DNA of 15,718 bases from Nitrospinota bacterium (lineage in GTDB: Bacteria; Nitrospinota; Nitrospinia; JACRGO01), in the NCBI GenBank assembly GCA_016212295.1, contig JACRGO010000132.1, positions 1-15,718 on the forward strand, read 5' to 3'. Positions 1,195 through 14,855 of the stretch are shown piece after piece. A model generated the notes under the pieces. It was not told where the DNA came from. It did no database searches and saw only the letters and a program-made list of their open reading frames with translations. The position numbers and the translations under genes are program-made. Within the stretch, counting starts at the first letter, position 1. Every line of letters begins with the position of its first letter.

Positions 1195-2421
1195 TCACCC
1201 CGGTTGTTTTACATGGCACTTCCCGCAACTCTCCGTGATGGAGGCGGCCTCTTTTCCATTGTGGCAGCGGCCGCAATATTTTCCGTTCTTCATGTTGCTC
1301 ATGGTGAGGAGTCCCAAGGCGTCAGCGCTTCCACGCTCCATGGCGAAGAGCCTTTCGTGGCACTCCCTGCATTCGGGAAACAGCGACTGGTGAAATTCGT
1401 GGTCGAATCGCACCGGGGCCAGCCCTTCCGTGTCCTTGAACCAAAAGACCTCCTTGCCTTCAACGCCGGCGCCCTTCTCTTCCATGGGTTTCTCGCCCAG
1501 TATGGAATCCAGTCCCTTCTCCGCTGCGTCCAGAAGGCTTTTGGAATAACCCACGTTGTGGACTCCCGGACTCTGCTCCACGAAGAAATAGTTATACCTG
1601 GCCTCCTGGAAGAGTTTGTTGATTGCCGGATCTTCCGCCTTTGGGCCCAGCGTCTTTTCCGCTTTTTCCATCTTGCTCCCGACGGCCAGGAGACGGCTTC
1701 TGATGTAATCCTTCCACTGGTCCAGAATTTCTCCATACCGTTCATCGTTGTGGCATTCCACGCAGCGCTCTTTCACGGTGGCCAGGGTCCGCCCCTTGAA
1801 GTCAGGTTCCGTGAGGGGAGAAAGCTCGTTATGGCAGCCTGTGCAGTCCACCCCGGCCTGGAACATGGGGCTCGGCCTTTCCGGCACGCCCATTCCTCCA
1901 CGGCCGCTATAAAGCATCTTCACCCCTGAATGCTTCGAGAGGTGGCAGGACCTGCAATCCGACCCCGCAAGCTTGGCCTTGTGGTCTATCCGGTGTTTAA
2001 TGTCCTCATGGCACAGAAAACATTCCACATGCGCCGACACGTGGATTTCATGAAGTTTTTCCTTTTCTCCACGGATTTCCACCCGTTCCGGGAAATCATG
2101 GCACTTGAAACAGGTGGTCTCCTCCACTTGTCCTTGTCCCTTGAAAACGTGGCCGTGGCATTCCAGGCAACTGATTTTCCCATCAATATATTTTTCGTGC
2201 TCGATATTTTGGGGTCCAAGGGGGATAACCTTCGGGAGGTCCCGGTGGCATCGCAGGCATTCCTCATCAGACTTTTTCCCGCCTTTGGCGTCCCAATTCT
2301 TTTTCTTGAGATGGCAAAGGTAGCAGTGGGTTTCGTTTACCGAGATATGTTGTCCTCCTTTCAGTGGTGAATGGCAGGAGGTATAATTGTTATGGAAATT
2401 AAATAAAAGTATCCACGAATT
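1195..2421 (-). pseudogene. Multiheme c-type cytochrome (11 CXXCH), 5'-truncated or start-less
   Basis: The frame encodes about 408 residues with eleven CXXCH heme sites: CYLCH, CLRCH, CLECH, CFKCH, CFLCH, CRSCH, CTGCH, CVECH, CRECH, CGRCH and CGKCH. Such proteins carry electrons in the periplasm or at the cell surface and need a Sec signal for heme attachment. Here none is visible. The frame is open back to the TGA (2424-2422) of the upstream gene, with no ATG, GTG or TTG until GTG at 2127-2125, which would discard three heme sites. Upstream of that GTG the protein is clearly conserved (CHSPLKGGQHISV, then HCYLCH). A first heme site is decayed: YTSCH, where TAT at 2385-2383 replaces an expected TGT. 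A GTG at 2425-2423 overlaps the upstream stop and has a GAGGG ribosome site, but its frame stops after eight codons. A deletion or frameshift that removed the start and signal peptide is the simplest reading; an assembly error is possible. Confidence 0.78.
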
Positions 2422-4071
2422 TCACTTCTTTCCCTCTTGCTCCAAAAGAAACTCCGATATTCCTTCCCTTATAGGCGCAAGGGCCGGGTCTCTCAGGGTT
2501 TCCCTTGCCATTCTTGGATGCATCATTGGATATATTTCCTTATAAAATTCCAGGGCCTTAGACGTTTGCCCGGACCGGGCGTACAAGCTTATCACCCCCA
2601 GATAAGGCACGATGTTTTTTTCGTCCGCCTTCCTCGCCATCTCGAACACCTTCAGCGCCTCGGCGATTTTTCCACCGTCCTCCAGCGCATAACCAAGGTT
2701 GCAATACAGCATGCTCGTGTTGGGCTTATATAGCTGTTTTTCCCATGAGTAGACTTGAAGTGAAATGATTGACAGGCCAAGCAGACAATAAAAAAGCCCC
2801 TTGCGGAAAAAATTCCTGTCCAGGAGTGAAAGGGCGTGGGAGCCGAAGAGTATGAGAAAGGGGACCAGGGGCAGCCTGTACCTGGTGGTCACGAAAAAGG
2901 CCATGAGCGTCGCCGCCTGAATGCCTATGGCACCAAGAAGAAGATAGTTTTTTTTCCAGTCCCTCATGGAAATCCACAGACCCGCCAGGGCCAGGGGAAA
3001 AATCAAGGCGTAGTTCATGAAGAACCATTTCAGCCCCGGAGTAAACTCGTTCCTTTCAAAATTCATGTAATAAATTATTGAGGTATCAGTTCCGGAAACC
3101 AGCCAATGCAGTTTTTGAAGTTCCAGAATCAGGTACCGCCTTGGGTCCTCGATGATAAAACTCAAGGCCTTCCTGAACCAAAAGCGGGAAACCTCCGAGG
3201 CGCCAAGCGGTCTGCCTGTCTCCCTTTCAGCGGCCTTCCTGGCGTCCTCGTTTTGAAATTGAAGGGACGCTGTGATTTCCGGGGGAGGGGCGTATGTGCC
3301 CGCGGCATTTATATTGTTTCCATGATAGAAGGTTTCTCCTCCGTTAGCGGCCACTAATATGAGGTCCCTTTCCAGGATGTAGTTTCCAAGGGCGCACGGA
3401 AATATGGCAAGGCAGAATCCCAGGGAAAAGGCCAGGGCCTTTTTTGCCTTAGCCGGGGCCTTTTCCTGGAGGCACAGGAAGAAATGCCCAACGCCCAACG
3501 GAAGCAATAGCAAAAGGTTGGAACTGGCCAGGGCAGGCAACCCGCCCAGGATTCCGCAAAAGATCCACGGCAATGGGCCTTGCTTGTCCTCAAATCTTTT
3601 GAAAACCAGGACAAAGGACGTCAACAGGAAAACCACCAGGGTTGCTGGAAGCAGTTTAAGCCCATAAAAGGCGAAGACGTCTGTAAAGGAAAAAATCAGC
3701 GAGGCGATGATTCCGGTTTTTTTGTTTAAAAAATCCCTGCCTATTAAATAAAGAAGAACGGCCGTGGCGGAGCTTAAAACCATTTGAAAAAGAAAAAGAA
3801 AAAAATAATTTTCTCCGAAGATCTTGAAAAAAGCCGCCACGGAATATGGATACAAGGGGGCATGATAAAAGGCCCCCTTGCCTATCCAATCGCCGCCAAT
3901 GATCTCCCTGGCCCAGTTGGCGTATTTCTCGGAATCCAGCAGAAAGGCGTTGAAATAAGGATTGCCTGCCCTGTACTCATAAAGGAGGGCGAGCCTGGGC
4001 GCCAGGGCCGCAATGAACAGGACCAAAACGGTTGGAAAGGATTTTGTTTTTTGGGGTTCTTCTTGGTTCAT
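2422..4071 (-). CDS. PMT/ArnT-like GT-C glycosyltransferase with C-terminal TPR
   Basis: A 549-residue polytopic membrane protein. A short cytosolic N-terminus leads into a first membrane segment (about residues 13-31), then a periplasmic loop with LLDSEKYANWA (Asp46, Glu48) and FYHAPLYPY. This is the pattern of the dolichyl-phosphate-mannose mannosyltransferase/PMT_2 clan, whose members move a sugar from a polyprenyl-phosphate donor to a protein or lipid outside the inner membrane; the loop acid is usually catalytic. About ten further hydrophobic segments follow to about residue 430. The last 110 residues form one to three TPR-like helix pairs (NTSMLYCNLGYALEDGGKIA and following). The start ATG has only a poor ribosome site (GTAAAAGA). 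It is divergent from the TMTC-like gene 32 bp away, with the cytochrome frame directly downstream. Donor and target are unknown. Confidence 0.82.
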   Translation of the reverse strand: MNQEEPQKTKSFPTVLVLFIAALAPRLALLYEYRAGNPYFNAFLLDSEKYANWAREIIGGDWIGKGAFYHAPLYPYSVAAFFKIFGENYFFLFLFQMVLSSATAVLLYLIGRDFLNKKTGIIASLIFSFTDVFAFYGLKLLPATLVVFLLTSFVLVFKRFEDKQGPLPWIFCGILGGLPALASSNLLLLLPLGVGHFFLCLQEKAPAKAKKALAFSLGFCLAIFPCALGNYILERDLILVAANGGETFYHGNNINAAGTYAPPPEITASLQFQNEDARKAAERETGRPLGASEVSRFWFRKALSFIIEDPRRYLILELQKLHWLVSGTDTSIIYYMNFERNEFTPGLKWFFMNYALIFPLALAGLWISMRDWKKNYLLLGAIGIQAATLMAFFVTTRYRLPLVPFLILFGSHALSLLDRNFFRKGLFYCLLGLSIISLQVYSWEKQLYKPNTSMLYCNLGYALEDGGKIAEALKVFEMARKADEKNIVPYLGVISLYARSGQTSKALEFYKEIYPMMHPRMARETLRDPALAPIREGISEFLLEQEGKK

Positions 4072-4074
4072 TCT

Positions 4075-4102
4075 TTTACGATTCGTTCTGGTTAGGTATA
4101 AT
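4075..4102 (+). promoter_or_regulatory. Candidate sigma70-type promoter in the divergent spacer
   Basis: TTTACG at 4075-4080, a 16-bp spacer and a perfect TATAAT at 4097-4102 fall in the 32-bp gap between two divergent genes. Transcription would begin near 4108-4110, at or just after the first ATG codons of the plus-strand gene, which would make its mRNA nearly leaderless or move the start to ATG 4110. On the minus strand TTGTGG-17 bp-TATACC is a weaker counterpart for the other gene. Both are motif matches only. Confidence 0.3.
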
Positions 4103-4103
4103 C

Positions 4104-5975
4104 ATGATAATGATAACCCACAACGAAAGCCGTACAAAACAAAGCGCCGTCCTTTTCATTCTTCTTGCCTGCCTGATGTCCCTTATCTATTTAGGGACCC
4201 TCAACGGCGAATTTCTTTTTGATGATTTTCCTAGGATATTGGAAAATCCAGGATTGACCGAGCCGCTCAGCCTCAAAAAAATAGTTACGGTAGGGATGCC
4301 CTCCCGTCCCTTCCTCATGCTGACCCTGGCCATGAACAAATATATAGGAGGGGACAAGACCTTCGGATACCACCTGTTCAACACTGTAGTTCATGTCTTA
4401 AATTCCATCCTTCTTTCCGTGGTCCTCACGAAATTTTTTGCCTTGGCAAGATTCGGCGAATGGAAGGAAATAAATTCGCTTAAAAACCTCCCTTTTATTG
4501 CCGCGCTTATCTTCGCGGTCCATCCCCTGCAGACCGAATCAGTCTCCTACGCCATTTGCAGGTCAGAGGAATTGTCCACTTTTTTCTACCTGCTGGCGGT
4601 TTTCTTTTATGTAAAGGCACATAGGCACAAAGGCACAAAGAACCAGTCAAACCAACTCGTGCTCAATGCCTGCGCGTTTTTCTCCGCCTTCCTCGGCGTT
4701 CTGTCAAAGGAGATAGCTGTCACCCTGCCTGCGGTCCTTGTCCCTGTGGACTATTTTTTTATAGCTGAATACGACTTAAGGCGATGTGCTAAAAGATTTT
4801 TCACGGCCCTTCCTTTTTATATAGCGATTATCTTAACTGCCGTTAACTTGGTCAAGTTGGACGCAGGAGTGGGGGTTTATGATAGGGGCGTGTATGAAAA
4901 CATGCTGACCCAGTCAAACGTGGTGGCGTTCTATATCAAGCTGTTGTTCTTCCCGATTACCCAGGCGTTTGATTATAATTTTCCCGGATTTAGAAGCCTT
5001 TGGACATTTCCAACCCCCTTCTCGATATGCCTGATCCTGGGACTATTGGGCCTGGCTGTCCTGCTGCGAAAAAAAAATAGACTAGTTTCCTTTTCCCTTC
5101 TCTGGTTTTTTATCACCTTGTCCCCAACGTCAAGCTTTGTGCCCGTGGATGATATAATTTTTGAGCACAGGCTTTATCTCCCCTTCGTGGGCGTCTCCAT
5201 TTTATCAGGAATCCTTCTCTTGCGCGCCTCCAACGGATTGGCGGGAACGCTTCATGTCTCCGGAAGAAAAGCGCTGTTTTTAATTTCGTTTTTTGTGTTT
5301 TTCCTGCTTTCCATAAACGCTCTTCACAGGAATGGGATTTACAAGGATTCCATGTCTTTCTGGGAGGACGCTGTAAGGAAGGCCCCCTGGAAGGACAGGC
5401 CCAACAACAACCTGGCCGCGCTTTATGGGAAAGCCGGGAGGTACAAGGAAGTGGAAGGACTTCTGACGCGCGCGCTTGAGGTATCTCCCTGGCATCCAGA
5501 GGCGCGGGCCAATTTAGGGGAGGCTTATTTTCATCTTGGACGGCCGGCGGAAGCGGAAGCGGAGTTTAATAAGGTCCTGAAAGAGCATCCTGACATGCCG
5601 CAGGCCAATTATTTCATGGGGAGGATGGCGGAGGATGGCGAGGACTTGAAGGCCGCCAGGGAGTATTACGAAAAGACCCTTGGCAGGAAGCCGGAACTGA
5701 CGGCGGCAAGGAACAAGCTGGCAGGGGTTTTTCTCAAGGAAGGCGGCATGGACCAAGCCCTGTTTCATTTCAAGAAGACCCTGGAGAAAAAACCGGACGA
5801 TGTGGAGGCCAATGCCAATATAGGCATAGTTTACGGTAGCATGGGCTTTTATGATATGGCCGTCAGGCATTTGCAGGCCGCGCTTAAGGCCGAGCCCGGG
5901 AACCCGGCAGTGCTTAAAAACCTTGCCTATGCCCAGGAACGATTAAAGGAGGAAAAGGGTGGCAGGGGAAAATAA
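4104..5975 (+). CDS. TMTC-like GT-C glycosyltransferase with TPR tail
   Basis: A membrane protein of about 623 residues. After a first membrane segment comes LNGEFLFDDFPRI (Asp40-Asp41), then YHLFNTVVHVLNSILL, FAVHPLQTESVSYAICRSEE, LSKEIAVTLPAVLVPVDYFF and EHRLYLPFVG. These are the marks of the TMTC/DUF1736 group, which in animals contains protein O-mannosyltransferases; bacterial members are mostly uncharacterised. From about residue 433 to the end are five to six TPR units (for example ARANLGEAYFHLGRPAEAEA), probably periplasmic and likely to dock a partner or substrate. The frame is open from 4032, but 4104 (or 4110) is chosen because the longer version would overlap the divergent gene and add an unlikely leader. 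No strong ribosome site is visible. A 24-bp stretch of three 8-bp repeats lies inside the gene at 4615-4638. Confidence 0.82.
   Translation: MIMITHNESRTKQSAVLFILLACLMSLIYLGTLNGEFLFDDFPRILENPGLTEPLSLKKIVTVGMPSRPFLMLTLAMNKYIGGDKTFGYHLFNTVVHVLNSILLSVVLTKFFALARFGEWKEINSLKNLPFIAALIFAVHPLQTESVSYAICRSEELSTFFYLLAVFFYVKAHRHKGTKNQSNQLVLNACAFFSAFLGVLSKEIAVTLPAVLVPVDYFFIAEYDLRRCAKRFFTALPFYIAIILTAVNLVKLDAGVGVYDRGVYENMLTQSNVVAFYIKLLFFPITQAFDYNFPGFRSLWTFPTPFSICLILGLLGLAVLLRKKNRLVSFSLLWFFITLSPTSSFVPVDDIIFEHRLYLPFVGVSILSGILLLRASNGLAGTLHVSGRKALFLISFFVFFLLSINALHRNGIYKDSMSFWEDAVRKAPWKDRPNNNLAALYGKAGRYKEVEGLLTRALEVSPWHPEARANLGEAYFHLGRPAEAEAEFNKVLKEHPDMPQANYFMGRMAEDGEDLKAAREYYEKTLGRKPELTAARNKLAGVFLKEGGMDQALFHFKKTLEKKPDDVEANANIGIVYGSMGFYDMAVRHLQAALKAEPGNPAVLKNLAYAQERLKEEKGGRGK
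4615..4638 (+). repeat. Three 8-bp tandem repeats inside the TMTC-like gene
   Basis: AGGCACAT, AGGCACAA and AGGCACAA lie head to tail and total 24 bp, so the reading frame is kept. They encode part of a hydrophilic loop (AHRHKGTKNQ) after a membrane segment. The unit resembles simple intergenic repeats rather than membrane-protein coding sequence, so it may be a repeat expansion or insertion tolerated in a loop. Confidence 0.7.
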
Positions 5976-6516: not shown

Positions 6517-6697
6517 AATCGACGTCCCATGTGCGGTGGGTGTTCATGTTATCCGCGCAAATTTTTCAACCGCGCCATGGAGCGCGCATGGCCGCAAACA
6601 AAATGGATTTTATCATGGAACAGGAATCAGACGGGCGTTGGCTGGCAGGCCAAGCCTAGCACAACCCTTAAGAGCATTCACCCCACTTCCTTTCTAA
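6497..6697 (+). pseudogene. DUF2442 protein remnant
   Basis: ATG 6497 has a strong ribosome site (GGAGG, seven bases before) and reads MSILAVEIDVPCAVGVHV, matching the N-terminal strand of DUF2442 proteins, the usual partner of DUF4160. The conserved middle (the DGR.ISVPLAW region) is absent and the sequence becomes low-complexity. Near the end LAGRPSLAQPLRAF resembles the C-terminal LAGRPSGES..SF motif of the family, again pointing to an internal deletion that kept both ends. The residual frame overlaps the 3' end of the opposite-strand DHH gene and includes a HicB-like start in another frame. Not expected to be functional. Confidence 0.55.
6588..6659 (+). pseudogene. HicB-like antitoxin N-terminal remnant
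   Basis: ATG 6588 opens MAANKMDFIMEQESDGRWLA, then TAG at 6657. The FI.EQE.DGRWLA stretch is the first strand of HicB-family antitoxins, normally followed by a partly degraded RNase-H-like fold and a DNA-binding domain. Only about 24 codons remain and no HicA gene was found next to it. It lies inside the out-of-frame DUF2442 remnant, so at least two decayed modules are interleaved here. The call rests on a short motif and could be chance. Confidence 0.42.
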
Positions 6698-8054
6698 ATG
6701 ATTCCATTACTATATGGGAAACCGTCCTAAGGGAGGCCGCCCCATGTATCTCCTTGAATTTTTTTAAGGGAACCACCGCCTTGGCCATGGAACTGTGGCC
6801 GCCTGCCTGGCCGGTTTGGCCGAAGAGTTTTTGAACGAGTAACCCGGCGCTCCTTGGGATTCCGATGTTTCTCACTGAAATAACGATGTTCCCCTCGTAA
6901 ATACCGCAAACCATTGACCAGTCTATTTCCCCGATCTGCAAACAAAAATCCGCCAGCCTGGGGATGATGTCCTCTTTTTCCGTTTCCCCTAAAAAAGTGT
7001 ACAAGGCCCGCCCGAAAATTTTTCTGTTTTTCAGCGCCTTTGTGAATAGGGCTATCTCGCCTGGGTCCAACTCCGGGCTTTCCATTTTTTTCAGAAGGGC
7101 GTGGTTGGCCAAGGGCCAGGCGGTTTTGAACGCCTCGAAGTCGTTCACGGAGACCTCCCGGCCCAGAAAAAGAGTGTCTGTTTTTATTCCATGCAGGAGG
7201 GCGGTGGCAAGCCTTTGGTTCAGCTTTATGTTGGAGGCCAGCAGATATTCCGTGAGGATTGTGGCCGTGGAGCCGTAGGAAGTTTTTATGTCGATATAAG
7301 GGACCGGCGTTGTGGTGACGTCAGGGTGGTGGTCGATTACCGCGTCGAATCTGTCGCACAGACCCTTGAAATAACGCGGCTGCGCGTCCACCACCGCTAT
7401 CTTTTCAAATTGCCCCAAGGATTGCGGACTTACCTGAACGACGTCTATGTCCAGGAGCTGCGCCATTGTGAGGTTTTCCCTCCATGTGATCTTCCCGAAG
7501 GTCCCGATCGGGGCTGTGGTCTTGTTCCGGTTCAACAGGACGCGAAGCGCCAAGGCGCTCGCGATGGCGTCCGGGTCCGGATCATGCTGCATAAGGATCA
7601 GGACGTTCCTGGCTGACTCAAAAAGTGATTGCAGCGCTTTCACCTTTCTGTTTGTCTCGATGAAGTCCCACTTGAAATGCAGGCCGCTGTCCAAAAGTTC
7701 AGATAGGGGAAAAACGGATATCCTGGGGTCCGTGACGGGCGGCGCAAGGTCGTCTTTTTTGTTCAAGACCACCAGTCCCTGAAAATCGGTTTTTTTAACC
7801 AGGATATTCTGAAGGACCTGGTAAAGGGCGTCCCTGCCGTTGAAGTGGAAGAAAAGCCGGTCGTTGGGTTTCAGGTGAAATAGATCGAGCAGACGAGGGG
7901 ATGAATCCCGCGGTTTCTTCCTCCACCCGCGGCTTTCCTCAATCCGGAAGTACTTGCCGGAGTGGTGGATTACAAGGTAGGCGTCGGATTTATCCGGGAA
8001 CCTCTTGAAATTTTCCCAAAGGCATGGATTGTCAGTGATGGCGATGTATCTCAT
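6678..8054 (-). CDS. DHH/DHHA1 family phosphoesterase (NrnA-like)
   Basis: A 458-residue soluble protein. Residues 1-130 form an extra N-terminal domain that I do not recognise. The DHH domain follows: HDPDPDAIASA (His157, Asp158, Asp162), VVDAQP (Asp223), DHHPD (241-245), SYGSTATILTEYL and GIKTDTLF (Asp293). These are the metal ligands that bind two Mn2+ ions. The DHHA1 substrate-binding domain ends with GGHSSMAKAVVP (Gly418-His420). NrnA-type enzymes degrade short RNA oligonucleotides and/or pAp; related forms cleave cyclic dinucleotides. All core motifs are present, so it should be active. NrnA itself is usually about 310-330 residues, so the N-terminal domain adds something, perhaps regulatory. 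The gene stands alone, convergent with the degenerate cluster, with a weak ribosome site. Confidence 0.85.
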   Translation of the reverse strand: MRYIAITDNPCLWENFKRFPDKSDAYLVIHHSGKYFRIEESRGWRKKPRDSSPRLLDLFHLKPNDRLFFHFNGRDALYQVLQNILVKKTDFQGLVVLNKKDDLAPPVTDPRISVFPLSELLDSGLHFKWDFIETNRKVKALQSLFESARNVLILMQHDPDPDAIASALALRVLLNRNKTTAPIGTFGKITWRENLTMAQLLDIDVVQVSPQSLGQFEKIAVVDAQPRYFKGLCDRFDAVIDHHPDVTTTPVPYIDIKTSYGSTATILTEYLLASNIKLNQRLATALLHGIKTDTLFLGREVSVNDFEAFKTAWPLANHALLKKMESPELDPGEIALFTKALKNRKIFGRALYTFLGETEKEDIIPRLADFCLQIGEIDWSMVCGIYEGNIVISVRNIGIPRSAGLLVQKLFGQTGQAGGHSSMAKAVVPLKKFKEIHGAASLRTVSHIVMESFRKEVG

Positions 8055-11420: not shown

Positions 11421-11570
11421 ATTACAAAATTTCAAATCTCAATTGTCAAATAACAAATAAATCTCAATAACCAAAATTACAAATGACAAACGAAGGAAAG
11501 GAAATGGAATTGTTTTGGATATTCGGTAATTGTAATTTGTGATTTATTTGTTATTTGTACTTTGTGATTT
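11421..11570. repeat. AT-rich imperfect inverted repeat
   Basis: The core CAAATAACAAATAAATC at 11447-11463 is the exact reverse complement of 11541-11557. Flanking AT-rich stretches (ACAAA/TTTGT units) continue the match imperfectly to make arms of about 50-60 bp. It fills most of the gap after lolD. No T-tract terminator is obvious and no coding signal is present in 11368-11705. Confidence 0.7.
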
Positions 11571-11575
11571 TCTCT

Positions 11576-11601
11576 CGCTCCCAGGGTCCTCCCTGGGAGC
11601 G
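11576..11601. repeat. GC-rich hairpin repeat, copy 2 (CCCAGGG-TCCT-CCCTGGG)
   Basis: CGCTCCCAGGG pairs perfectly with CCCTGGGAGCG around a TCCT loop. It is the second copy of the hairpin at 6034-6063. A further small palindrome, GGAGGCTCCGCCTCC (11610-11624), follows at once. Confidence 0.8.
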
Positions 11602-11705: not shown

Positions 11706-14700
11706 TTGAAAATAATCGCCGACTTCCATATCCACTCCCACTTCTCCGTCGCCACAAGCAAGGACCTGATACCGGAACAACTCGAATATTGGGCGCGGCT
11801 TAAAGGAATCAATGTAGTGGGGACAGGCGACTGCGCCCACCCCGGCTGGCTGAGGGAACTCAAGGAAAAGCTGGAACCAGCCGGGAACGGTTTCCTCCGG
11901 CTGAAGGAAGATTACCGGCGGAAGGACGTCATGCCCCCGCAAGACCCCCACGGCGGCCCCTTCTTCATCCTCACAGGCGAAATCAGCGGCATCTACAAGA
12001 AGAACGGAAAGGTGAGAAAGGTCCACAACCTTTGCGTTTTCCCTGGCTTCCCATCCGCGGAAAAATTTCAAACCCGCCTTGGCAAGATGGGAAACATAGA
12101 GTCGGACGGCAGGCCCATCCTGGGGATCGACTCCAAGCATCTCCTGGAAATTGTGCTGGAATCCTCTGACTCCTCCTTCCTTATCCCGGCCCATATCTGG
12201 ACCCCCTGGTTTTCGGTCCTCGGCTCGAAGTCCGGGTTCGACCGCATAGAGGAATGCTTCGACGAACTCACGCCGCACATATTCGCGGTTGAGACCGGAC
12301 TCTCCAGCGATCCGCCCATGAACTGGACCTGTCCTTTTCTCGACCGCTTCAGCCTCGTTTCAAATTCCGACGCCCATTCCCCTGAGAAGCTTGGCCGTGA
12401 GGCCAATATCTTCGATACGGATTTGTCATACACGGCCATTCACAGCGCGCTGAAAGGCGGCGAGGGCTTTCTAGGCACCATAGAGTTCTTCCCTCAACTT
12501 GGAAAATACCACTTTGACGGACACCGCAAATGCGGCGTTTGCTGGAACCCGATGGAAACCATCAAGCATAAGGGGATATGCCCTGAGTGCGAAAAACCGG
12601 TCACCAAAGGGGTCATGTACCGCGTGGCGGAACTCGCGGAGCGGTCGGACCTCGACTCAGCCCCGAACAGGCGCGGCTTCTATTCCATCACTCCCTTGCC
12701 GGACCTGATCGCCGAGATTCAGGGCAAGAAGAGCAGTTCCTCAAAGTCGGTCAAGGAGGAATACCACAGGCTCATCGGCAAGTTGGGACCGGAGTTTCAT
12801 GCGCTCCTATTCTCCCCCTTGGACGAAGTCCGAAGGGCGGGCGGGGAACTTTTCGCCAGGGGAATAGAGAAGATCCGGAACGGGGAGATCATAATTGAAG
12901 ATGGATTCGACGGCGAGTTCGGGCAGGCCAGGGTCTTTGACGCCAAGGAGCTTAAGTCCCTTTCCGGCGCGTCCCTCTTTGCCGCCGAGCCACAGGCCAT
13001 GATTTCCAGGGACAGAAAGGCCAAGGGGTCAGTGGAATTCGACATCGACGGATTCCAGAAGCTGCGCGAAAAATATTCAGTCGGCCCTAAAATAGCGGAC
13101 CCCTCGCCAGGCGTTTCCGTGGAAACGGAAGAGCAGAGGGAAGGGATCGAATTCTTTGCCGGTCCATGCATGGTATTGGCCGGTCCAGGCTCAGGCAAGA
13201 CAAGGGTCTTGACTGAGCGCATCATTCATCTCATAACAGAAAAAGGGATCAACCCCGCAAGCATCCTGGCCCTCACCTTCTCCAACAAGGCGGCTGAGGA
13301 GATGTCTGAGAGGGTCCTGAAAAAAAGGCCGGACGCGGAGGCGCGCGTATCCACCTTCCACGCCTTTGGGCTTTCGATATTGCAAGAACATTTGGAAAAG
13401 TTCAACCGCCGCCCTCCCATCCATATAATAGATGAAGAGGAGAAGAGGGAGATGGTGGAGAGGATCTCAGGCTGGAAGGCGCGGGAAATACAGGCCGGGA
13501 TCAGGGAGATCGCGGCCTTCAAGCAGGACGGGTATCAACCGGAAATTCCGCCGCTTGTTGAGCGGTACGGACGGGAGCTTGAAAAATCCGGCGTCTTTGA
13601 TCTCGATGACCTCATATATCTGCCGCTGAAACTCTTCCGCGAGGACGCGCGGGCGTTGGAGCAATACAGGCTGCGGTATCCCTGGATTCTAATAGACGAG
13701 TTCCAGGACATCAACGCGGTCCAGTATGAATTGGTCAGGGCGTTGGCGGGAGAGGGGAGTCCCAACCTTTTTGTGATAGGGGACCCGGACCAGGCCATAT
13801 ACGGATTCCGAGGGTCAGACGTCCGGCTCATGGCTCGATTTCAAAAGGACTACCCGGACCACAGGCTCATTTCGCTGGGCAGGAGTTATAGGTGTCCAGC
13901 GGTGTTCCTTAAGGCCGCGGGCCAGGCATTGGGCAAGGAAGAGGCCCTTGATGGCAGGCCGGAAAGTCGGAAGGTGCATGTGCAACTGTGCGAAACTGAG
14001 TCGAGCGAGGCGGACTGGATCGCGGGCCGGATCGAAAAGATGATGGGGGGAGTGAGAAGTTTTTCCATGGATAGCGGGATCAGCGACGGGGACACGTCCG
14101 AGGGCGCGGAGAGTTTTTCCGATTTCGCGGTGTTGTGCCGGACCTCCGCCATGTTCGCTCCGCTTGAGAAGGCGTTCGCGGCCCACGGGATCGCCTGCCA
14201 GGTGGTGGGGACCCGGCCTTTTTACGAAAGGGAACCCTGGAAGCCAATGATCAACAGGTTGAGGCGTATTTTTTTCACGGGAAAAGAAGAAGGAGGGGAG
14301 GGGACCCATGATCCCCTTGATGCGGAACTAAGGCGGAGGATAGCTGATAAAGTGGATGTCAGGGAAATTCTGTGTTTTCTGGCTGAGGGAAAGGACGCGC
14401 CGGAGCGGGACATGGACCGCATGAAGGCCTTTGCCGGGGAATTCGGCAATGACTGTGAACGGTTCTTCCTATCCGTTGCAACACGCCTTGGGATGGACGA
14501 TTACGACAAGAGGGCCGAGGCTGTTTCTCTCATGACCCTTCACGCCTCCAAGGGACTGGAATTCAACGTGGTCTTCATCCCCGGCTGCGAGGACGGGATC
14601 ATCCCCTTTGAGGTCTTCGGCAAGAAGGAGGAGGCTGAACTGGAGGAGGAAGCCAGGCTTTTCTATGTTGGGATAACCAGGTCGAAAAAATATCTCTTCC

Positions 14701-14855
14701 TGTCCCACGCCGCGAAGAGATTTTTTCGAGGCAGGGTGTTGCAGCAGAAAAAGAGTCCGCTTCTGGACCGCATGGAAAAGGATTTATTGTTTCGCGATAA
14801 ACGCGAGGCACGCAAACTCCCCGGCCCCGACGCCCAGTTGCCGCTGTTCAGGTAA
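11706..14855 (+). CDS. EndoQ-like PHP nuclease fused to UvrD-type SF1A helicase
   Basis: A 1049-residue fusion. Residues 1 to about 250 are a PHP metal-nuclease domain: ADFHIHSHFS (Asp6, His8, His10), GTGDCAHPGW (Asp42, His45), LTGEISG, IPAHIWTPW and SNSDAHSP. A CxxC...CxxC zinc finger (CGVC and CPEC) lies near 276-295, then YRVAELAERSDLD. This order matches endonuclease Q (TIGR00375/COG1379), which nicks DNA 5' of deaminated bases. From about 475 an SF1A helicase follows: AGPGSGKT (492-499), LTFSNKAAEEM, STFHAFG, DEFQD (664-668), GDPDQAIYGFRGSD, LGRSYRC, TLHASKGLEFN and FYVGITRS (Arg992). All ATPase motifs are intact; the 2B region is short. Nicking and unwinding in one chain suggest deaminated-base repair. 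Upstream stop TAA at 11685 leaves TTG 11706 as the only reasonable start, and no ribosome site is visible. Similar fusions may exist in databases as plain UvrD helicases. Confidence 0.85.
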   Translation: MKIIADFHIHSHFSVATSKDLIPEQLEYWARLKGINVVGTGDCAHPGWLRELKEKLEPAGNGFLRLKEDYRRKDVMPPQDPHGGPFFILTGEISGIYKKNGKVRKVHNLCVFPGFPSAEKFQTRLGKMGNIESDGRPILGIDSKHLLEIVLESSDSSFLIPAHIWTPWFSVLGSKSGFDRIEECFDELTPHIFAVETGLSSDPPMNWTCPFLDRFSLVSNSDAHSPEKLGREANIFDTDLSYTAIHSALKGGEGFLGTIEFFPQLGKYHFDGHRKCGVCWNPMETIKHKGICPECEKPVTKGVMYRVAELAERSDLDSAPNRRGFYSITPLPDLIAEIQGKKSSSSKSVKEEYHRLIGKLGPEFHALLFSPLDEVRRAGGELFARGIEKIRNGEIIIEDGFDGEFGQARVFDAKELKSLSGASLFAAEPQAMISRDRKAKGSVEFDIDGFQKLREKYSVGPKIADPSPGVSVETEEQREGIEFFAGPCMVLAGPGSGKTRVLTERIIHLITEKGINPASILALTFSNKAAEEMSERVLKKRPDAEARVSTFHAFGLSILQEHLEKFNRRPPIHIIDEEEKREMVERISGWKAREIQAGIREIAAFKQDGYQPEIPPLVERYGRELEKSGVFDLDDLIYLPLKLFREDARALEQYRLRYPWILIDEFQDINAVQYELVRALAGEGSPNLFVIGDPDQAIYGFRGSDVRLMARFQKDYPDHRLISLGRSYRCPAVFLKAAGQALGKEEALDGRPESRKVHVQLCETESSEADWIAGRIEKMMGGVRSFSMDSGISDGDTSEGAESFSDFAVLCRTSAMFAPLEKAFAAHGIACQVVGTRPFYEREPWKPMINRLRRIFFTGKEEGGEGTHDPLDAELRRRIADKVDVREILCFLAEGKDAPERDMDRMKAFAGEFGNDCERFFLSVATRLGMDDYDKRAEAVSLMTLHASKGLEFNVVFIPGCEDGIIPFEVFGKKEEAELEEEARLFYVGITRSKKYLFLSHAAKRFFRGRVLQQKKSPLLDRMEKDLLFRDKREARKLPGPDAQLPLFR

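Follow-up and report, generated by a model that had tools for sequence, protein, structure and literature searches.

The window analysed here, a stretch of 15,718 nucleotides from a Nitrospinota genome, carries at positions 11706-14855 a gene for a single protein of 1049 residues in which an endonuclease Q (EndoQ) part is followed by a UvrD/PcrA-type SF1A helicase. This composition, proposed in the initial annotation of the locus, is borne out by an uninterrupted ORF, by sequence matches to both domains, by their predicted fold and by conservation across phyla. The start point is shared with relatives, which open with M-x-F-I-A-D, and the features of the gene are arranged as follows.

11706..14855, + strand: EndoQ-UvrD fusion gene, 1049 aa, TTG start, no internal stop
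11706..12938, + strand: EndoQ part (residues 1-411), with PHP catalytic, zinc-binding and C-terminal domains
12522..12590, + strand: zinc-site region (residues 273-295), four positions invariant in 49 aligned rows
12966..12980, + strand: degenerate internal clamp-motif site GASLF (residues 421-425); the model is disordered at 422-441
13044..13076, + strand: predicted short linker helix (residues 447-457) with an FD(I/L)xxF/Y motif
13113..14804, + strand: UvrD/PcrA-type SF1A helicase (residues 470-1033), all motifs
13179..13202, + strand: Walker A motif AGPGSGKT (residues 492-499), conserved
14046-14075: signature GGxxxFSxD (residues 781-790), just N-terminal of motif IV
14268..14510, + strand: shortened 2B region (residues about 855-935), from the motif IV-V distance
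14835..14849, + strand: QLPLF (residues 1044-1048), predicted beta sliding clamp (DnaN) binding motif

An AlphaFold2 model built from 49 fusion sequences reached a mean pLDDT of 84.6 and a pTM of 0.65, with low confidence in the linkers at 422-441 and 459-471 and in the tail from residue 1033. The FD(I/L)xxF/Y helix, flanked by two disordered stretches, is common to many fusions with a short 2B region and is a possible docking element.

The fusion gene stands alone, 338 bases downstream of a LolC/LolD-like ABC transporter pair. The sequence between the transporter genes and the fusion gene contains a perfect 11-bp GC-rich hairpin (CGCTCCCAGGG/CCCTGGGAGCG) at 11576-11601, without a clear T run, and an intergenic, imperfect 34-nt AT-rich inverted repeat (82%) of the form AAATCTCAATTGTCAAATAACAAATAAATC at 11434-11570, which may be a dispersed repeat. 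Elsewhere in the window lie a gene for a DHH-family phosphoesterase-like protein (6678-8054, minus strand; 458 aa, Pfam DHH), in which an N-terminal extension of roughly 150 residues precedes the DHH domain, and two divergent membrane-protein genes at 2422-5975, one PMT_2 glycosyltransferase-like and the other with a TPR tail, adjoined by a multihaem cytochrome c7-like gene (1195-2127, minus strand).

The EndoQ half

Residues 3-410 match PfuEndoQ (5zb8/7k30) over the whole domain (phmmer E 1.5e-49). In structural comparisons, the predicted EndoQ half aligned with PfuEndoQ 5zb8 over 385 of 398 residues (Z 41.9, rmsd 2.8) and the predicted structure with the dU-DNA complex 7k30 at Z 40.1. Structure prediction, which had been suggested as a check, thus returned the PfuEndoQ fold. 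In the phmmer alignment the metal ligands D6, H8, H10, D42, E92, H107, H163, D222 and H224 correspond one to one to Pfu D6, H8, H10, D42, E76, H84, H139, D193 and H195, and base-pocket residues G198 and S200 to Pfu G169 and S171. All of these are kept in 49 of 49 aligned fusions, so that the PHP metal ligands are indeed intact, as had been claimed. In PfuEndoQ, E76, H84 and H139 are essential, and T and A are excluded by H139, G169 and S171 (PMC8307549), residues that the window protein retains as H163, G198 and S200.

The zinc site called for a partial revision. It had been described as a CxxC...CxxC finger, and the second CxxC (C292/C295) stands, whereas the first does not: C279 is Cys in 21 of 49 fusions and Arg in 17, while H273, C276, C292 and C295 are invariant in all 49 and align with Pfu C249, C252, C268 and C271. 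Because C279 is poorly conserved and H273 is both invariant and aligned with Pfu C249, the site is read as HxxC...CxxC, with H273, C276, C292 and C295 most likely the ligands of a plausible zinc set. The CPxC of the EndoQ zinc cluster is present, and the first Cys of the cluster is an invariant His (HCCC versus CCCC).

The score against TIGR00375, a curated NCBIfam model that covers less than the whole family of EndoQ enzymes, is 146 bits, below the curated cut-off of 326.6; standalone EndoQs from the phylum of the window also miss this cut-off, which therefore limits the name and not the homology. EndoQ homologues nick 5' of deaminated bases and AP sites (PMC4357722, PMC6202378), and by analogy with archaeal EndoQ the fusion would share this lesion specificity and cleavage side. 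The identity to PfuEndoQ, about 31% across the EndoQ domain, and the His in place of one zinc-site Cys would both accommodate an EndoQ part that has drifted away from base recognition and now acts as a general nickase, either at AP sites or structure-specific. The metal ligands and T/A-excluding pocket residues are invariant in 49 fusions, however, and dU/dI activity is retained by the B. pumilus and M. acetivorans homologues (PMC6202378), so that drift of this kind appears highly improbable.

The helicase half and the spread of the fusion

Residues 475-1033 match PcrA/UvrD (E about 1e-66) and the Pfam families UvrD-helicase (2.9e-69) and UvrD_C (4.5e-34), and D. radiodurans UvrD (4c2t) aligned with the predicted helicase half at Z 36.5. 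K498, T499, D664, E665, R702, R729 and K949 are invariant in 49 of 49 fusions, and R992 is Arg in all 47 rows with a residue at that position. The full SF1A motif set reported for the protein is consistent with both results, the fold being UvrD-type and the tested motif residues conserved in the aligned fusions. Complete motifs and a UvrD-type fold (Z about 36) are shared with UvrD, PcrA and Rep; unlike them, the fused helicases form a branch separate from PcrA/UvrD/Rep (100% SH-aLRT), the 2B region is shortened in the main fused clade, and a clamp peptide replaces the usual PcrA/UvrD tail. The PcrA model scores 339 bits, below its cut-off of 911.

The shortening of 2B is real, the distance between motifs IV and V being 138 residues in the window protein versus 195-212 in the 11 measurable PcrA-type controls, but it is not, as first described, a peculiarity of this protein. 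Most fusions measure 133-153 residues and a minority 186-208. In the tree, 33 fusions, the window protein among them, form a clade with 100% support that by inspection corresponds to most of the short-2B set; the trait belongs to a large fused clade. In UvrD-type helicases a change in 2B alone does not imply altered polarity, and a 3'-to-5' direction would be expected by analogy with UvrD/PcrA. The signature GGxxxFSxD, present ahead of motif IV in 43 of the 46 fusions, is missing from all 27 PcrA-type control helicases, whose source genomes are fusion genomes plus a few relatives.

A scan for the EndoQ domain across one genome per species returned at least 546 relatives, of which the best 80, selected as nearest to the window, were examined. 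Together with sequences from the phylum of the window these make 84 EndoQs, of which 59 are fused and 20 stand alone, the other 5 being truncated at a contig end, a fused share that is not an estimate of prevalence because the sample consists of the sequences closest to the window. Fusions occur in at least 12 phyla (names from record titles, NCBI ranks): Spirochaetota, Elusimicrobiota, Cloacimonadota, Calditrichota, Thermodesulfobacteriota, Deltaproteobacteria placed in Myxococcota, Bacteroidota, Planctomycetota, Acidobacteriota, Omnitrophota, Chloroflexota, Nitrospirota and others. A co-occurrence of PHP and UvrD domains, which the initial annotation had recommended looking for, is recurrent in these genomes. 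An assembly artefact, named there as a refuting outcome, is ruled out, since 46 fusion ORFs are complete in genomes independent of one another. The EndoQ tree requires 10 changes between the fused and standalone states, at least 7 of them forced by well-supported branches; the fusion state has therefore switched repeatedly.

Both halves are of known kinds. No paper on an EndoQ-UvrD fusion, and none on this architecture with a clamp motif at the helicase end, was found in the literature searched, subscription papers lying outside its scope, in line with the earlier statement that no functional description was known; databases may well already contain the architecture, labelled there simply as a helicase. 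Endonuclease Q itself (PfuEndoQ, TIGR00375/COG1379) shares the fold, metal ligands and base pocket, and its C-terminal clamp motif is found in both domains of life. Characterised EndoQs, however, are about 400 aa long, lack a helicase and have a CCCC zinc site, whereas the fusion has an appended helicase, an HCCC site and a strong clamp motif at the helicase end. AddA, RecB and AdnA/B are likewise single chains with an SF1A helicase and a nuclease. In these proteins the nuclease lies at the C-terminus, is of RecB type and degrades DNA from ends, in contrast to the N-terminal PHP nickase of the fusion, which is predicted to be lesion-specific.

A defence enzyme, nicking and unwinding incoming DNA that contains uracil or other modified bases for degradation, was also considered, an anti-foreign-DNA activity having been raised in the initial annotation. 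The helicase matches profiles of the UvrD-type helicase GajB (Gabija) in PADLOC, and Bacillus EndoQ has been mentioned in a review as possibly antiviral (PMC8307549). The GajB matches, however, reflect generic UvrD similarity. No GajA-like neighbour was present among the window genes scanned; the partner nuclease of GajB is the OLD/TOPRIM protein GajA, not a PHP enzyme. Furthermore, EndoQ relatives were absent from 50,697 phage records, 72,556 plasmids and 2.9 million viral contigs, and no neighbour family recurs convincingly beside the fusions within 5-kb flanks. Large ORF clusters in these flanks were discarded as neighbours, since they look like shadows of the fusion gene, read antisense or in another frame. 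With neither mobile relatives nor conserved neighbours the anti-foreign-DNA proposal finds no support, and a defence role is improbable, the more so as a replication-clamp motif suits housekeeping repair better.

The clamp motif and the repair genes of the hosts

The C-terminal clamp motif, overlooked in the initial annotation, is the most informative functional clue. The strict form Q[LM]x[LMF][FL] falls within the final 12 residues in 39 of the 46 complete fusions and the looser form Qxx[LMF][FLW] in 44, whereas neither form ends any of the 27 PcrA/UvrD/Rep-type control helicases; the chance rate of a C-terminal clamp motif is about 0.001. Q1044 is Gln in all 46 alignment rows that reach this position. 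QLxLF is the consensus for clients of the beta clamp and often lies at the extreme C-terminus (PMC4549789), and QLPLF is accordingly predicted to bind the DnaN sliding clamp, which the window genome encodes.

Clamp binding has precedents in this family. Archaeal EndoQ uses a C-terminal PIP box to bind PCNA, which stimulates it, and clamp motifs in bacterial EndoQ have previously been noted (PMC4858679). The standalone EndoQs collected here often terminate in GQxxLF or QLTLF, and the corresponding position persists in many fusion linkers, position 422 being Gln in 31 of 49 and position 425 Phe in 47 of 49; in the window protein this site has decayed to GASLF, with loss of the Gln. This would be most simply explained if an older motif at the end of EndoQ had been joined by a second one at the helicase end.

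The motif also resembles that of the host MutS, which carries QLSLF near its C-terminus. This likeness would suit a helicase-led role in unwinding at forks or in mismatch repair, with EndoQ giving strand entry at misincorporated dU or dI and so marking the new strand instead of repairing deamination itself; polymerases do incorporate dUMP and dIMP (PMC4858679), and the coexistence of UDG in most hosts fits as well. Such a role is nevertheless unlikely, for MutS is itself present in the host and no recurring neighbour family, of mismatch repair or otherwise, accompanies the fusions.

Base-repair genes likewise form no conserved operon with the fusion within 5-kb flanks. UDG is encoded in 31 of 37 fusion genomes and in 74 of 77 genomes from the phylum of the window. 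A search of the window genome found neither UDG nor EndoV, but these absences are unreliable because the assembly also lacks a full DnaE, itself likely an assembly gap; Pol I and MutS are encoded. EndoV occurs in 11 of 37 fusion genomes, with no clear pattern. The fusion as a replacement for UDG was rejected on these counts: since most fusion genomes still encode UDG, the enzyme is not needed merely for want of uracil repair.

Proposed repair mechanism and related gene arrangements

A reading in which the protein nicks and then unwinds DNA in the repair of deaminated bases, as initially envisaged, is the best supported. In its fuller form, the fusion is probably a single-chain, housekeeping nucleotide-incision repair enzyme, held by the clamp, that nicks 5' of the lesion and strips the damaged strand. 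Docking of the C-terminal QLPLF on DnaN would position the protein behind the replication fork, a tethering suggested by the peptide motif itself through its likeness to QLxLF clients. The EndoQ domain would then flip out a U, hypoxanthine, xanthine or AP residue and cut the phosphodiester bond 5' of it, an incision that yields a 3'-OH and leaves the damaged nucleotide with a 5'-phosphate. Post-nick steps of EndoQ have only been modelled (PMC4858679). In the order of events hypothesized here, the fused 3'-to-5' helicase would load at the nick, travel along the intact strand and displace the damaged strand, 5' end first, whereupon Pol I or the replicase could extend the 3'-OH, a putative 5' exonuclease or flap nuclease could trim the displaced strand, and ligase could seal the product. 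The pairing of EndoQ and helicase would be mechanically sensible, because a 3'-to-5' helicase that enters at a nick 5' of the lesion and tracks along the intact strand would displace exactly the strand that bears the lesion. More tentatively, and against somewhat unfavourable odds, one clamp-tethered protein may constitute a glycosylase-free, long-patch form of nucleotide-incision repair behind the fork that is widespread in bacteria.

EndoQ has so far been described as mainly archaeal, with few bacterial homologues. The fusions extend this picture, in that a candidate for the step after nicking, strand displacement, is supplied by the same polypeptide or by a gene close downstream in at least 12 bacterial phyla, and their clamp-binding-type tail is lacking in PcrA-type helicases, whether from the same genomes or from related ones. 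A single purified protein would thereby suffice to test glycosylase-free repair in bacteria directly, along with the part of the sliding clamp in it.

The downstream arrangement, which lends support to the proposed mechanism, was seen at five loci (L080, L089, L092, L096 and L100), where a UvrD-like gene lies at most 2.5 kb downstream of a standalone EndoQ; at several other standalone EndoQs the downstream sequence is too short to judge adjacency. In the helicase tree, the proteins of L080, L089 and L092 nest within the fused-helicase clade, while those of L096 and L100 branch outside both this clade and the PcrA/UvrD/Rep group. The GGxxxFSxD signature was not found in the separate helicases adjoining standalone EndoQ. 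Three of these helicases end in a related peptide followed by at most a few residues, namely QLDFF in L080, QMEFF in L089 and QIGLF in L096. In the last of these loci (L096:5001-9445, from a Nitrospirae genome), EndoQ, a gene that we read as encoding a Pif1-like helicase, and the UvrD-like helicase lie close together in this order on one strand.
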